This document shows positions 27,094 to 34,230 of a stretch of DNA of 64,000 nt, piece after piece. The stretch is taken from NCBI GenBank assembly GCA_036362785.1, contig CP143625.1, forward strand, positions 1 through 64,000. Direction: 5' to 3'. The translations under genes were made by a program, and so were the position numbers. This DNA comes from a beta proteobacterium MWH-UniP1. Lineage in GTDB: Bacteria; Pseudomonadota; Gammaproteobacteria; Burkholderiales; Burkholderiaceae_A. Each line of letters opens with the position of its first letter. Positions within the stretch are counted from its first letter, which is position 1. Under the pieces are notes generated by a model that saw only the letters and a list, made by a program, of their open reading frames with translations, did no database searches and was not told where the DNA came from.

Positions 27094-28053
27094 TTATTGC
27101 GCTGGCATGACAGCGTCTATAAATATTGCTGCCACATCGATTCCCGCCTGCGCCGTGATTTCTTGAAATCCAGTTGGGCTTGTTACGTTAATTTCGGTTA
27201 AGCACTTGCCAATGATGTCGAGTCCGATCAGCGCAAGCCCCCGGGGGGCGAGCTTTCGCCCCACCGCCCGTGCGATTTCTCGGTCATGCTCAGAAATAGG
27301 CTGAACGACACCCTTGCCACCAGCCGCAAGATTGCCCCGGGACTGACCAGCCGGCGGTATGCGGGCCAGTACATGATCGATCGGCTCACCGTTAATCACG
27401 ATGATGCGTTTATCCCCATCAATAATTTCTGGCAGATAGCGTTGGGCCACGATGCTTGTGGAACCGGTCTGCGTGAGCACTTCGATGGCCGATGGAAGAT
27501 TGGGGTCATTGGATTGCAGCACGAAAACACCAGCCCCACCCATGGCATCCAAAGGTTTGATCACGATTTTCTCGTGATGGGCTGCAAAGGCCTTGATCGA
27601 TTGAATATTGCTTGAAATTAGCGTGGGTGGCGTAAATTCAGGAAACTCCAGGGCCGCCATTTTCTCCCCATGATTGCGTAGAGCCTGAGGGGAGTTCACC
27701 ACAGGCACACCCTGCCGTTCGGCAATCTCAAGCAGTTGCGTGGCTACAAAATAATTCTGATCAAAAGGCGGGTCTTTGCGCATGATGATGACATCAAAGA
27801 CAGTGGCTTCTTTCCAACTCGCCTCATCTTCGATCCACCATGGCTGGGCCTCGGGCTGATCAATCCGAATTCGGTGGGAAAACACCTGCAGTCTGGCTTG
27901 ACTCTGATCGGCAGCGGCCCGAAGTTCCTGAAGGCTTGCCGCATGAATTTCAATGCCACGTTTTTGGCATTCCCGCATCATGGCAAAAGTGGTGTCTTTG
28001 TAAGTGGCAAAGCCGCTAAGTGCGTCGCAAACAAACAAGACCCGCTGGCTCAT
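27094..28053 (-). CDS. gshB: glutathione synthetase
   Basis: GshB joins glycine to gamma-glutamylcysteine with ATP. The 319-residue ATP-grasp enzyme has the family blocks IMRKDPPFDQNY, IVIKPLDAMGGAGVF, IDHVLARIPPAGQSRGNLAA and LTEINVTSPTG. It overlaps the upstream gshA by four bases (ATGA), so both steps of glutathione synthesis are translationally coupled. Confidence 0.97.
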   Translation of the reverse strand: MSQRVLFVCDALSGFATYKDTTFAMMRECQKRGIEIHAASLQELRAAADQSQARLQVFSHRIRIDQPEAQPWWIEDEASWKEATVFDVIIMRKDPPFDQNYFVATQLLEIAERQGVPVVNSPQALRNHGEKMAALEFPEFTPPTLISSNIQSIKAFAAHHEKIVIKPLDAMGGAGVFVLQSNDPNLPSAIEVLTQTGSTSIVAQRYLPEIIDGDKRIIVINGEPIDHVLARIPPAGQSRGNLAAGGKGVVQPISEHDREIARAVGRKLAPRGLALIGLDIIGKCLTEINVTSPTGFQEITAQAGIDVAAIFIDAVMPAQ

Positions 28054-29330
28054 GATGCGCCCTGCTCCAGCTCCATTGATGCGGCCAATAAGGCCAGACG
28101 AGCAATTACCCCGTAGACATAGAATCGGTTCGGCGCGGCATCTGGGTGGCTGGCATAGTCGGGCTGCAGGCAGCTTTCATCAAAGGGTAGTGGCGCAAAT
28201 TTCATGCCCGGCGCATTTAAGTTTTCATCGGGGCCACGCTCAGCATGGACCCGATAAAAGCCACCCACCACATAGCGATCCACCATGTAGACAACAGGCT
28301 CGGCTACTGCGTCGTCAACGCTTTCCAGGGTGGGCACACCCTCTTGAATCAGGACATCACTGACCTGCATACCCTCTTTGACCACCGCCATTTTGTTGCG
28401 TTGTTTGCGGTTGAGATTTACCACTTCACTGGCATCTTTGACCGTCATCACGCCCATGCCATAGGTGCCGGCATCGGCCTTCACTACAACATAGGGTTGT
28501 TGGGTAATGCCCAGTTCGTTATATTTTTTCTGAATGCGAGACAACATGCGCGAGACGTTATCGGCCAGACAAGACTCCCCCTCTCGCGCATGAAAATCAA
28601 CATTTGTACAGGTTGCAAAATATGGGTCTAGCACCCAGGGGTCGATTTTGATTTGCTCGGCAAACATCTCGCAGACTTTCGAATAAGCCGCGAAGTGTTG
28701 GGATTTGCGGCGTACCGACCAGCCCGCATGCAGCGGCGGAATGATCTTTTGGCCTTGAATTCCCTTCAGAATTTCTGGAACGCCCGCCGACAAATCGTTG
28801 TTGAGCAAAATACCGCAGGGATCAAAGCCAGCCACCCCCACACGGTTTCCGTTCCTAATCAAGGGTTCTAACAGCAGCTGTTCGCCGTTGGGCAGATCAA
28901 TCGGCGTTGGACTGGTGATCTCTGGAATTAAGGTGCCAATCCGAATATCAAGCCCCGATTGCTTTAGCAGCGCTGCAAGCCGGGCGACATTGGTGAGGTA
29001 GAACGTGTTTCTTGTGTGATTTTCAGGAATTAGCAAAAACCGCCGGACATCCGGGCAACGGCGCTCCACTGCAGCACTCATGGCCTGAACAGCCAGCGGC
29101 ATAGCATCTTCGGACAGGTTATTGAATCCACCCGGGAATAAATTGGTATCCACTACCGATAACTTGAATCCGGCATTCCGTAGATCGACCGATGCATAAA
29201 ATGGCGGCACGTGGCTGGCCCACTGCGAACGGAACCAGTACTCGATATCGGCACTGGCAGTCAGGATCTGCTGCTCTAGGTGCAGCAGGGGGGCGCCGCC
29301 ATCGGCAGCATTGAGTATTCGAGGCACCAT
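28050..29330 (-). CDS. gshA: glutamate-cysteine ligase (PF08886 type)
   Basis: This 426-residue protein belongs to the proteobacterial GshA family PF08886, unrelated in sequence to E. coli GshA. It makes gamma-glutamylcysteine, the first step to glutathione. Recognisable blocks are YASVDLRNAGFKLSVVDTNL, FPGGFNNL, LLIPENHTRNTFY and VVKADAGTYGMGVMTV (ATP-grasp-like). No Shine-Dalgarno sequence precedes the ATG; instead a -10-like TACAAT ends eight bases before it. It probably heads a gshA-gshB-EIIA-ptsH-ptsI operon. Confidence 0.93.
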   Translation of the reverse strand: MVPRILNAADGGAPLLHLEQQILTASADIEYWFRSQWASHVPPFYASVDLRNAGFKLSVVDTNLFPGGFNNLSEDAMPLAVQAMSAAVERRCPDVRRFLLIPENHTRNTFYLTNVARLAALLKQSGLDIRIGTLIPEITSPTPIDLPNGEQLLLEPLIRNGNRVGVAGFDPCGILLNNDLSAGVPEILKGIQGQKIIPPLHAGWSVRRKSQHFAAYSKVCEMFAEQIKIDPWVLDPYFATCTNVDFHAREGESCLADNVSRMLSRIQKKYNELGITQQPYVVVKADAGTYGMGVMTVKDASEVVNLNRKQRNKMAVVKEGMQVSDVLIQEGVPTLESVDDAVAEPVVYMVDRYVVGGFYRVHAERGPDENLNAPGMKFAPLPFDESCLQPDYASHPDAAPNRFYVYGVIARLALLAASMELEQGAS

Positions 29331-29338
29331 AACTGGGC

Positions 29339-29368
29339 ATTGTAGCCAAGCTTTTTAAACCCTGTTAT
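29339..29368 (-). promoter_or_regulatory. possible gshA promoter
   Basis: On the minus strand ATAACA (29368-29363; 4/6 match to TTGACA) and TACAAT (29344-29339; 5/6 match to TATAAT) are 18 bases apart. The -10 ends eight bases before the gshA ATG, so the message could be leaderless or nearly so. It lies just downstream of the amtB terminator, as a new operon promoter should. Confidence 0.4.
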
Positions 29369-29383
29369 TTAAGACCCCAGAAG

Positions 29384-29413
29384 AAAAAACACCCGCCAGT
29401 TGCCCGGCGGGTG
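29384..29413 (-). terminator. rho-independent terminator after amtB
   Basis: On the minus strand an 8-bp GC-rich stem (CACCCGCC at 29413-29406 with GGCGGGTG at 29397-29390) and a 8-base loop are followed by six T (29389-29384). It lies 33 bases after the amtB stop and separates the ammonium operon from gshA. Confidence 0.88.
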
Positions 29414-29446
29414 GTGAAGAAACACATCGACAAGGAAAAACAAGAC

Positions 29447-30889
29447 TTACATGTAATACGCTTTCTCCCCGTGGGAGGTCACGTCTAATCCTTCACGTTC
29501 TTCATCCTCGGGCACGCGCAGGCCAACCACCATCTTCACAATCAGCAGCGCAATCACTGAGACCACTGCGGACAGGATGACGGTAGTGACCACGGCCTCA
29601 GCCTGAATCAGCACCTGGGCTCCGATGGAGTAGTTGTCCCCAACTTTGTTGGCCACATAGTCATAGATGCCCATGCCACCCAGCCAAGGCGCTGCAAATA
29701 CACCCGTCAGGATTGCTCCCACAATGCCGCCCACACCGTGGACGCCAAAAACATCTAGCGCGTCGTCGGCTTTGAGCAGTTTTTTCAGCCCAGTCACCCC
29801 CCAGAGGCAAACAAATCCGGACACCAGACCGATCACCAAGGCGCCGATCAATCCGACAAAGCCTGCTGCAGGGGTAATAGCGACCAGTCCAGCGACCGCG
29901 CCAGATGCGGCACCCAGCATGGACGGCTTACCCTTTAAGACCCACTCCCCAATCGTCCAGGCCATAACTGCCGTAGCGGTCGCAAACAGAGTGTTGGTGA
30001 TCGCCAGCATTGCCGTACCGGTTGCTTCCAAGTTAGAGCCACCGTTAAAGCCAAACCAGCCCACCCACAGCATTGCAGCACCGACCATGGTTAGCGTCAG
30101 AGAGTGAGGTGCCATGGACTCTTTGCCGTAGCCAACCCGTTTGCCCACCATGTAGGCGGCGACCAGGCCCGCAACACCTGCGTTGATATGAACCACGGTG
30201 CCACCAGCGAAATCGAGCGCGCCTTTTGCCCAGAGTGCACCTGCAGCAGCAACCACGGCCTCGAGTGACTTGGCATCAGTAATTGCATCTGGACCATCCC
30301 AATACCAGACCATGTGTGCAGTCGGAATGTAGGCAAAGGTGAACCATAGGATCAGGAACAGCAGGACCGCGGAGAACTTCATGCGCTCTGCCGTCGCTCC
30401 CACAATCAGTGCACAAGTAAGGGCAGCAAATGTGCCCTGGAAAGCCACGAAGATCAGCTCGGGGATGACCACGCCCTTGCTAAATGTTGCAGCGATGGAA
30501 TCAGGTGTAATGCCAGTCAAGAAGATCTTATCGAATCCACCGATATACGGGCTACCACCGGTAAAGGCCAGCGAGTAGCCATAAATTGCCCACAACATAA
30601 AAATCATGGATGCACCGACCATGACTTGCATGAGTACCGACAACATATTCTTGGTTCGCACCAGTCCGCCATAAAAGAGGGCAAGCCCCGGAATAATCAT
30701 TGAAAAAACCAAGATCGTTGACAGCATCATGTAAGCCGAGTCACCTTTGTTTGGTACGGGAGCTGCTGGCGGCGTTGCGGCCGCAGCAGGGGGGTCAGCA
30801 GCGAAAGCGAGCGATGCCAAGCCTGCGGTGCCGACTGCCGCCAAAATAGTCGGCGCGTATTTCGCGAGAGTAGAAGTGAAAGTTTTCAT
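29447..30889 (-). CDS. amtB: ammonium transporter
   Basis: AmtB is the inner-membrane ammonium channel blocked by P-II protein. The 480-residue product starts MKTFTSTLAKYAPTILAAVG, with a signal peptide (to about 30), an Ala/Pro-rich spacer and about 11 membrane helices. The pore twin histidines are H234 (TVVHINAGVAGL) and H384 (FGVHGVGG). An upstream in-frame start adds 38 residues without hydrophobic character that overlap the glnK end region, so I reject it. GAGG before the ATG is the ribosome binding site. glnK lies 31 bases upstream, the standard pairing. Confidence 0.96.
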   Translation of the reverse strand: MKTFTSTLAKYAPTILAAVGTAGLASLAFAADPPAAAATPPAAPVPNKGDSAYMMLSTILVFSMIIPGLALFYGGLVRTKNMLSVLMQVMVGASMIFMLWAIYGYSLAFTGGSPYIGGFDKIFLTGITPDSIAATFSKGVVIPELIFVAFQGTFAALTCALIVGATAERMKFSAVLLFLILWFTFAYIPTAHMVWYWDGPDAITDAKSLEAVVAAAGALWAKGALDFAGGTVVHINAGVAGLVAAYMVGKRVGYGKESMAPHSLTLTMVGAAMLWVGWFGFNGGSNLEATGTAMLAITNTLFATATAVMAWTIGEWVLKGKPSMLGAASGAVAGLVAITPAAGFVGLIGALVIGLVSGFVCLWGVTGLKKLLKADDALDVFGVHGVGGIVGAILTGVFAAPWLGGMGIYDYVANKVGDNYSIGAQVLIQAEAVVTTVILSAVVSVIALLIVKMVVGLRVPEDEEREGLDVTSHGEKAYYM

Positions 30890-30920
30890 AAATGCCTCGT
30901 TCAAAAAGTGGTCAACACCA

Positions 30921-31319
<399 letters not shown>

Positions 31320-31331
31320 TTAATGCTCGGA

Positions 31332-32129
31332 TTAGAAAGCTTTGGTGATTGAAATTGCTGCGCCGGAGTCGTAAAGCTTTTTCGACCGATTGTCAGTTGA
31401 TGTGTACCAAGCTTTTGTATCGGCACTCATGCTTGACGTGTTGTAAGCCGTTAACCCGATTACCCATCCCTCTAAGTCATAGGCAACTCCAATCGAGTAG
31501 TCGGTAAAATCTTTGGTTCCCGCGGTTTTATTAGCTAAGTCTGTTAAACCAACATGCGCCTTTAGCATGAGCTTTGAAGCAATCTCTCTAGAGAAACTTA
31601 AGTCGTAGTACATCGTGCCCTTGGCATCCGTAGTGAGAGATATGTCTGCCGGAGTTTTACCAAGACCAAAGTATTGATCACCAAGGGTTCGTGAGACTTT
31701 CAGTGAGATCGGCCCGTAACCTGCGCCGATATAGGCCTCTCTGGTGTTGAAGACGTTTTTTGATTCGGTATCGCTTTTTCGTGCGCCAGGGTAGTAGTAA
31801 TAGATAGCGCCGAGGTCAAAGCTAATACCCATGGCTTCAAACTTGTATCCGCCATAAAGGTCTTGCTCAATTCCAGCCGAGTCATTTGCTGCCCACTCTG
31901 AAACCGAGGAGTTCCAGTTACCTAGGTAGAGCCCTGACTTGTGGGCAAAGTCGATACCACCCTGAATAGCTGGTTTTTTGTTGGATTGGGAGATGCCGCG
32001 GAACCGGTAGTCCGACGTCAGACCGAAATTTCCACTAATTGTGTAATCAGGTTCCGGCGCTTTTTTATCTTGTGCCAATGCGGGTGCGGTCAGGGCGGCC
32101 AGTGAAAGTGCAACCAAGGTCTTTTTCAT
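31332..32129 (-). CDS. TorF-family (TIGR02001) outer membrane porin
   Basis: The 265-residue protein has a signal peptide cleaved after APALA (about 19), alternating beta-barrel-type strands (GNFGLTSDYRFRGISQSNKK is the family signature) and a C-terminal Phe typical of outer membrane proteins assembled by BAM. It fits the TIGR02001/Gcw_chp putative porin family. It is the first gene of the porin-glnK-amtB cluster with an AAGGAG ribosome binding site, so it may let ammonium or another nitrogen source through the outer membrane. The true substrate is unknown. Confidence 0.85.
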   Translation of the reverse strand: MKKTLVALSLAALTAPALAQDKKAPEPDYTISGNFGLTSDYRFRGISQSNKKPAIQGGIDFAHKSGLYLGNWNSSVSEWAANDSAGIEQDLYGGYKFEAMGISFDLGAIYYYYPGARKSDTESKNVFNTREAYIGAGYGPISLKVSRTLGDQYFGLGKTPADISLTTDAKGTMYYDLSFSREIASKLMLKAHVGLTDLANKTAGTKDFTDYSIGVAYDLEGWVIGLTAYNTSSMSADTKAWYTSTDNRSKKLYDSGAAISITKAF

Positions 32130-32179
32130 GGGAATGCTCCTTGTAGGGGTTCGATCTAAAGTGATCGCAAGAAGACAAA

Positions 32180-32194
32180 GCGAAAGTCGTGCCA
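32180..32194 (-). promoter_or_regulatory. sigma-54 promoter of porin-glnK-amtB
   Basis: On the minus strand TGGCAC-GACTT-TCGC matches the -24/-12 consensus TGGCAC-N5-TTGC with one mismatch, and the GG and GC pairs have the required 10-base spacing. The predicted transcription start is about 32169, giving a 40-base leader with the AAGGAG site near its end. The nitrogen genes behind it make the assignment convincing. Confidence 0.85.
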
Positions 32195-32279
32195 GGTCCT
32201 TTGGCGTCCGTCTGGCGGACCGGTGGGATGTCTTTTGGGTCTAGTGGCCAGGGTCTGCTGGCCGAAGGGCTGTCGATTC

Positions 32280-32305
32280 GCACTAAAAAAGTGCGCTTTA
32301 CGCAC
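32280..32305. promoter_or_regulatory. NtrC-type enhancer site
   Basis: CGCACTAAAAAAGTGCG contains GCAC-N7-GTGC (32280-32294), the same half-site layout as E. coli NtrC sites. An overlapping second dyad GTGCG-CTTTA-CGCAC (32291-32305) follows. The first dyad is centred about 118 bases upstream of the predicted sigma-54 start, a normal distance for an NtrC enhancer. It also lies about 80 bases before ubiK on the other strand. Confidence 0.75.
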
Positions 32306-32370
32306 CGAATTGAGCCGGAATCGCTATCCTCTCTTCCAGTCCTATCAAGAGGCGTGCTAAATTTGGACTC

Positions 32371-32637
32371 ATGAATAAACCCCCATTCCCTTCTTTTCCG
32401 CCCCTTCCCAAGGCGTTTGCTGATTTACAAGACAAAGTCACTGAGTTGATGAAGTCCTCTCCGGCTGCAGATGTAGAAAAGCACATGAAGGGTGCCTTGG
32501 CTTCTGCTCTAAATCGGATGGACGTGGTGACACGGGAAGACTTCGATATTCAGCAACAGATGCTGTCTCGTGCCTTGGAAAAGCTCTCTGTGTTGGAAAA
32601 GCGTGTTGCTGAGCTTGAAGCCAATAAAAAGGCCTAA
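32371..32637 (+). CDS. ubiK: ubiquinone biosynthesis accessory factor UbiK
   Basis: UbiK (YqiC, BMFP family) assists aerobic ubiquinone synthesis together with UbiJ. The 88-residue protein has a Pro-rich start and a C-terminal coiled coil (about 50-85, MLSRALEKLSVLEKRVAELE), the family pattern. It diverges from the porin operon and is followed by comM after 48 bases. Confidence 0.88.
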   Translation: MNKPPFPSFPPLPKAFADLQDKVTELMKSSPAADVEKHMKGALASALNRMDVVTREDFDIQQQMLSRALEKLSVLEKRVAELEANKKA

Positions 32638-32685: not shown

Positions 32686-34230
32686 GTGTCATTAGCAATT
32701 GTTCATTCTCGAGCCATTTCAGGCCTGACTGCCTTGCCCGTTCGGGTCGAAGCAGATTTGGCCAACGGCCTGCCCCAGTTCTCGGTTGTTGGGCTGCCCG
32801 ATGCGGCAGTCCGAGAGGCCCGAGATCGCGTCCGTGCTGCGATCGTTAATTCTGGCTTCGATTTTCCCCAGCGTCGTGTCACGGTGAACCTAGCGCCGGC
32901 CGACCTGCCGAAAGACTCTGGCCGTTTCGATTTACCGATTGCCATCGGGATTTTGGCCGCCAGCGGCCAAATCGCTTCAGGCCATTGTGACCAGGCTTTG
33001 CAAGATCACGAGTTTGTTGGCGAACTCTCGTTAACCGGAACCCTTTTGCCTGTTAGGGGTGCTTTCGCGCTTGCCATGGGGGTGATCAATGGCCCCTCTT
33101 TGACAGGCAGCTTAATTCTGCCAAAGGCCAATCAAGAGGAGGCTTCGCTTACTGAATCCAATCGACTGCGTTTTGCTGCAGGCCTGCGGGAAGTGACTGA
33201 TTTTTTACAAAAAAACCACCCGCTAGACGGGCCACTTGAAATTGATCAAGCGTTACTCACGATCTCTGATCGGGATTGGTCGGATATTCGGGGGCAGGAT
33301 TTGGCCAAGCGCGCGGCGCTAATCGCTGCGAGTGGTCAACATAACCTTTTGATGTTTGGTCCACCCGGCGTGGGAAAGTCCATGATTGCATCCCGTATGC
33401 CGGCCGTTTTGCCCGCACTTACAAAAAGTCAGGCCTGTGAGTTGGCGGCGATCAAAAGTCTTGAGTCAACCGTGGATCATCACAACTGGAGAATGCCTCC
33501 GTTTCGATCACCTCATCACAGCACCCCAGCGCGGGCCATTATTGGCGGTGGTCAGCCCATTCGACCTGGCGAAATTTCGCTTGCCCATCACGGTATTTTG
33601 TTTTTAGACGAGCTACCCGAATTTTCTCGTGACGCCTTGGAGAGTCTGCGTGAGCCGCTTGAGACCGGAGAGGTGAGCGTGGCACGGGTCCGTCATCGCG
33701 CCCAATTGCCAGCCAATGTGATGTTGGTGGCTGCCATGAACCCCTGCCCCTGTGGTTATTTTGGTGTGTCGCATGGCAAACGCGTTTGCAAATGCTCGCC
33801 TGACCGTATTGATCGTTACCGCGGGAAGATATCTGGCCCATTGATGGATCGGTTTGATATTGCTATTCAGCTTTGCGCTGTGGATGATCAGACACTCAGA
33901 AAAGCAGCGCGTGTTGATTCGGCGAGCCGTACTTCGGAAATTGCAGCGATCGTCGCTCAGGCCAGAAGCACTCAGATAGATCGACAAGGTAAGCTCAATA
34001 GCCGTCTTTCGGTGCCTGAGATCGAGCGCGTCGCCGTGCTGGATGCAAACTCGGAGCAACTCCTGCAGCAGGCCTCTCGCCAGTGGGGCTGGAGCGCACG
34101 GTCTTGGCACCGTGTGTTACGGGTGGCGCGCACGGTAGCAGATGTCGACTGCAGCCCCAAGATTACTTTCGGCCACGTGAGTCAGGCCATTGAATTACGT
34201 CGGGCTATGGATGCCCATTTGTTGTCTTAG
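32686..34230 (+). CDS. comM: YifB/ComM-type Mg chelatase-like AAA+ ATPase
   Basis: ComM is a hexameric helicase that extends branch migration during natural transformation. The 514-residue protein has the N-terminal ChlI-like domain (VEADLANGLPQFSVVGLPDA, about 20-40), Walker A GPPGVGKS near 226, a Cys cluster in MNPCPCGYFG...CKCSPDRI, and the C-terminal helical lid. It begins at GTG overlapping the end of a small GC-rich dyad (32668-32686). With dprA also present, the window holds two transformation-related genes. The 3' end overlaps the opposing MFS gene by 26 bases. Confidence 0.92.
   Translation: MSLAIVHSRAISGLTALPVRVEADLANGLPQFSVVGLPDAAVREARDRVRAAIVNSGFDFPQRRVTVNLAPADLPKDSGRFDLPIAIGILAASGQIASGHCDQALQDHEFVGELSLTGTLLPVRGAFALAMGVINGPSLTGSLILPKANQEEASLTESNRLRFAAGLREVTDFLQKNHPLDGPLEIDQALLTISDRDWSDIRGQDLAKRAALIAASGQHNLLMFGPPGVGKSMIASRMPAVLPALTKSQACELAAIKSLESTVDHHNWRMPPFRSPHHSTPARAIIGGGQPIRPGEISLAHHGILFLDELPEFSRDALESLREPLETGEVSVARVRHRAQLPANVMLVAAMNPCPCGYFGVSHGKRVCKCSPDRIDRYRGKISGPLMDRFDIAIQLCAVDDQTLRKAARVDSASRTSEIAAIVAQARSTQIDRQGKLNSRLSVPEIERVAVLDANSEQLLQQASRQWGWSARSWHRVLRVARTVADVDCSPKITFGHVSQAIELRRAMDAHLLS

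Follow-up and report, generated by a model that had tools for sequence, protein, structure and literature searches.

Upstream of a predicted porin gene, within the 64,000-nucleotide stretch of DNA analysed here (the window), a sigma-54 promoter motif and an NtrC-type inverted repeat lie on the same strand of a single intergenic region, which raises the question of whether they form a working nitrogen-controlled promoter for the genes behind them. Our comparative analysis makes it very likely that an NtrC-activated sigma-54 promoter drives a three-gene nitrogen-scavenging operon, torF-glnK-amtB. Such an architecture, in agreement with its downstream genes, had been proposed in a sequence-only reading of this DNA; the proposal is supported by the presence of rpoN and glnA-ntrB-ntrC in the genome, by the promoter type of glnA, by gene order and by conservation.

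The torF-glnK-amtB locus and its upstream motifs

The first gene, torF (31332-32129, minus strand), encodes a TorF family putative porin, assigned by profile match (TIGR02001, PF09694) and modeled as a 12-stranded barrel; an AAGGAG ribosome-binding site precedes its ATG (32137-32142, minus). It is followed on the same strand by glnK (30921-31259), a PII signal protein gene by profile match, and by the ammonium transporter gene amtB (29447-30889, by profile match, with the start set at the methionine of MKTF). Residue 51 of GlnK, counted in the translation, is a tyrosine, which we take to be the uridylylation site. The same-strand gaps between the three genes are 72 and 31 bp, and a single, co-transcribed operon is therefore likely. 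Its probable end is a hairpin with a T run resembling an intrinsic terminator, 3' of amtB (29390-29413, minus), a pattern equally common in shuffled sequence; gshA, of the TIGR02049 type, lies past this hairpin (28050-29330). The promoter region is bounded by a divergent ubiK/BMFP-like gene (32371-32637, plus; above the cut-off for PF04380, below that of the NCBIfam UbiK model), after which comes yifB (32686-34230).

The intergenic region between torF and the ubiK-like gene is 241 bp long and carries both motifs on its minus strand. The candidate -24/-12 promoter, TGGCACGACTTTCGC (32180-32194, minus), is the sole exact match to TGGCAC-N5-TYGC in the 64 kb window and is retained in relatives. 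The sequence-only reading had described TGGCAC-N5-TCGC with correct spacing, and the exact box is indeed found at 32194-32180 with GG and GC separated by the canonical 10 bp; with the -12 C at 32180 as reference, the predicted +1 falls at about 32168. The box alone is little proof of a promoter, since shuffled windows average 0.6 exact matches against the single real one. With one mismatch allowed there is no enrichment (12 matches in the window versus 15.4 in shuffles), and the whole genome holds 21 exact matches versus 10 for the reversed pattern.

The putative enhancer is a GCAC-N7-GTGC dyad, GCACTTTTTTAGTGC (32280-32294, minus), retained in many relatives. Its centre at 32287 lies at about -119 from the predicted +1, within the range of 80-200 bp upstream and in keeping with the earlier estimate of some 118 bases. 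The stricter enteric palindrome TGCAC-N7-GTGCA was searched for and is absent at this site; the dyad is flanked by C and G where the full enteric palindrome has T and A. Two GCAC-N7-GTGC dyads occur in the window versus a mean of 1.8 in shuffles, and GCACY-N5-RGTGC occurs 15 times in the genome versus 11 in the control, so that each motif singly is only modestly above genome control, within about twofold. None of 400 shuffled windows and none of 20,000 shuffled versions of the 241-bp region placed a dyad ahead of a box at a distance of 60-250 bp, and multiplying the genome counts yields a rough expectation of 0.03 for the pair. Among the 21 exact genomic sigma-54 matches, that of torF alone is preceded by an exact dyad within 300 bp. 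The signal beyond chance is thus the combination of box and dyad, neither motif being striking singly.

Regulators, conservation and competing readings

The genome examined is a single contig of 2,049,113 bases, estimated to be 99.82% complete. It encodes rpoN, glnD, two PII proteins and glnA-ntrB-ntrC; the presence of ntrC and rpoN, which had been named as a check on the sequence-only reading, is thus confirmed, with glnA-ntrB beside ntrC. NtrC has a receiver, an AAA+ and a Fis-type HTH domain, and it is the sole full-length match (G000:C1:1269725-1270867) among the five that the sigma-54 activator domain PF00158 gives in this genome at E<=0.01; the remaining four, which include yifB in the window, are partial and much weaker. 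Across 26 genomes of the family there are one to four PF00158 matches per genome at E<=1e-12, and within the genus one match in 4 of 7 genomes and two in 3 of 7, the six other than our own being multi-contig drafts. The NtrC translation (L046:5377-6873, minus) reads GSFTGA at the sigma-54 contact motif, of which the usual form is GAFTGA.

The region upstream of glnA is an internal model for candidate NtrC promoters of the same organism. Its promoter, AGGCACGGTTTTCGC, begins 58 bp before the ATG with one mismatch to the exact pattern, and exact dyads lie at -197 and -136. It shares with torF the -24/-12 type (with the common end TTTCGCTTT) and dyads of the form GCAC-N7-GTGC, and differs in having two exact dyads rather than one and an A as the first base of the -24 box.

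A further intergenic sigma-54 box, TGGCACGTATTTTGC, is found at G000:C1:557137-557151 (L048:7137-7151, plus), with an NtrC-like dyad upstream, CGCACCAAGACAGTGGC, that has one mismatch. It precedes a peptide-type ABC transporter (an SBP_bac_5 protein and two permeases), which is probably another nitrogen operon.

Matches to torF at E<=1e-15 are present in 21 of the 26 family genomes, with glnK downstream in every one of these 21 loci. In the 20 loci with upstream sequence, the window included, the box is found 17 times with up to one mismatch and 19 times with up to two, an exact dyad 13 times and the pair 12 times. The sister genus g3, with the box (up to one mismatch) in 5 of 7 loci and an exact dyad in 1 of 7, is the main source of the shortfall. 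The box was likewise present in all five MAG loci (one Rubrivivax, one Comamonadaceae, one Burkholderiaceae and two labeled 'Proteobacteria') and the pair in four; glnK lies downstream in four, the fifth (L074) being cut at a contig end. As in the window, gshA lies downstream of amtB in two MAG loci (L070 and L071); it was not found in the examined stretches of L072 and L073.

Within the order, TIGR02001 is matched in 94 of 150 genomes, our own included. The survey covered 115 loci (G081:C2:1047600 was left out, and of two secondary fragments one was joined to the adjacent match and the other dropped), of which 81 adjoin glnK, 31 do not and 3 lie at contig ends; adjacency was defined as a tblastn match to glnK at E<=1e-4, no more than 700 bp away and on the same strand. 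Where 200 bp or more of upstream sequence was available, loci were scored for a box with up to one mismatch and obligatory GG and GC, for an exact dyad, and for the two 60-200 bp apart. Ahead of torF genes adjoining glnK (n = 80) the box occurs in 61 loci, the dyad in 60 and both in 44, compared with 1.8%, 1.1% and 0.0% in shuffles of the same upstream regions; the strict pair is missing from the other 36. For torF genes that do not adjoin glnK (n = 30) the corresponding counts are 4, 2 and 1, and for those at contig ends (n = 3) 2, 1 and 1. The commonest letters are TGGCACG-N5-TGCT in the 61 boxes and GCACC-N5-GGTGC in the 44 dyads, the fixed letters stemming partly from selection, and the starts of dyad and box are a median of 107 bp apart, compared with 100 bp at the window's locus. 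By these sequence counts, the pair is conserved beyond chance ahead of torF-glnK in both the family and the order.

These data bear directly on the readings that compete with NtrC control. That the motifs arose by chance and a housekeeping promoter drives the operon might be argued from the near-control frequency of each motif singly, yet their joint occurrence and conservation speak against it; moreover, a scan of 28900-32500 for a simple sigma-70 consensus returned one site, at 29368-29339, and none ahead of torF, and we regard this reading as scarcely credible. Somewhat less remote, though still very improbable, is a genuine box operated by a sigma-54 activator other than NtrC. Many members of the family do carry two to four PF00158 proteins, which gives this reading its footing, whereas in the one-contig genome NtrC alone matches the domain in full, and the torF dyad shares its GCAC-N7-GTGC form with both dyads ahead of glnA-ntrBC.

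The remaining competitor concerns a second, overlapping inverted repeat, GTGC-N7-GCAC (32291-32305, minus), which the sequence-only reading had counted as another dyad. The repeat exists, but its half-sites are reversed: the minus strand reads GTGC, GCAC and GTGC in order at 11-bp steps, and the last two alone make up the NtrC-type site. Of 60 comparable loci, the window's own alone has GTGC at the outer offset, and on this count we reject a functional second NtrC dyad; the reversed half-sites and this lack of recurrence together make the repeat unlikely to be an NtrC site as drawn. It is probably nonfunctional as a dyad and contributes at most one extra NtrC half-site. Since the hairpin-forming segment 32290-32306 has a terminator-like score for the minus strand, it could also be read as a transcription terminator or RNA element that happens to contain the dyad. 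Terminator-like matches in 28900-32500 are, however, not enriched (3 versus 3.3 in shuffles), the outer repeat has the same 1-in-60 recurrence whereas the NtrC dyad is seen repeatedly, its spacer differing between loci, and the nearest upstream genes, ubiK and yifB, sit on the other strand; on these grounds the terminator reading was rejected as most improbable. As a guess, the outer GTGC may be a half-site remaining from a second site 22 bp upstream; two congeneric relatives (L052 and L055) show such an arrangement, with an exact dyad and a one-mismatch dyad 22 bp from it. Where relatives carry a pair of exact dyads, 9 of the 17 pairs are spaced 31 or 32 bp apart.

Proposed nitrogen control and related operons

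The motifs and the genes suggest a model for NtrC control of the operon, for which the workings of the Ntr cascade and of GlnK-AmtB are established knowledge. Under nitrogen shortage GlnD would uridylylate PII, and NtrB would then phosphorylate NtrC. Bound as oligomers to the dyad near -119, NtrC would reach by looping the sigma-54 RNA polymerase waiting in its closed state at -24/-12 and would open this complex at the expense of ATP. The products would be an outer-membrane channel, the ammonium transporter AmtB and GlnK, which would block AmtB once nitrogen returns. We infer NtrC binding and nitrogen induction at the torF promoter from these features, and the operon is most likely switched on under nitrogen scarcity.

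In E. coli, glnK-amtB has a sigma-54 promoter with upstream NtrC sites. The enteric arrangement is like the torF operon in these elements, but no torF porin is known to stand in front of the enteric genes. The nearest known system is the nlmA-glnK-amtB (orf1-glnK-amtB) operon of Herbaspirillum seropedicae, which is reported to be NtrC-dependent, with 21-fold higher amtB::lacZ expression when nitrogen was limiting (PMC3023670). The order of membrane protein, glnK and amtB in that operon is the same as here, where the genes share one strand with short gaps; that nlmA belongs to TIGR02001 is suggested by this gene order, and the genome studied here is of about 2 Mb. In Burkholderia cenocepacia the P-II gene BCAL0729, said to carry a sigma-54 site, and the porin gene BCAL3473 both go up on nitrogen depletion; the spacer between the -24/-12-like elements of BCAL3473 is extended, and its product is described as a porin that transports amines and is under sRNA control; the main text of that paper mentions neither TorF nor amtB (PMC10117139). 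A study of the NtrC regulon of the same species lists several porins and, in the portion available, names glnK once, in the introduction, and amtB never (PMC5491218).

The torF promoter is thus a well-supported further example of a well-understood switch, and it brings little surprise because the H. seropedicae operon and the nitrogen-induced genes of B. cenocepacia were already known. Less ordinary are that sigma-54 has apparently been left with one activator and that a porin is tied to ammonium uptake. A wider reading, which we hold tentatively and think rather less probable than its negation, is that sigma-54 has shrunk to a dedicated nitrogen factor, with NtrC as sole activator and a regulon of glnA-ntrBC, torF-glnK-amtB and perhaps the peptide ABC transporter, and that TorF serves as a specialised entry point in the outer membrane for ammonium, when scarce, or for small nitrogen compounds. 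The comparative evidence backs the regulation of a conserved porin-glnK-amtB operon and, across an order, links a porin family to ammonium limitation. A genome with a single sigma-54 activator would offer a clean natural background in which to define a sigma-54 regulon in full.

The TorF porin family

TorF scores 166.4 bits against TIGR02001, for which the curated cut-off is 47.15. Its AlphaFold2 model, built on an alignment of 63 proteins out of 89 extracted, is a barrel of 12 strands with a mean pLDDT of 86. Foldseek placed OccAB3 first (TM-score 0.41), its E-value order being led by larger porins with poor TM-scores. A second structural comparison ranked KdgM (Z 15.9, rmsd 2.4, 162 aligned residues, 9% identical) and NanC (Z 15.5, rmsd 3.2, 193 aligned, 7% identical) highest, with many other barrels close behind at 6-15% identity. 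A search of the PDB sequences with the TorF profile gave no relative, just three nanobody-type chains (E 0.12-0.15) taken as noise. A C-terminal F, as expected in outer-membrane barrels, is present in 86 of the 89 extracted proteins. Pfam labels the family as of unknown function, and a paper search for TorF/Gcw_chp by name gave a single paper with one mention, a combined query giving none. Its place in the operon is what suggests that TorF may admit ammonium or small nitrogen compounds.

Among the torF genes that do not adjoin glnK, one (L132, in genome G118) has both a sigma-54 box and an exact dyad, and there the porin alone may be nitrogen-controlled.
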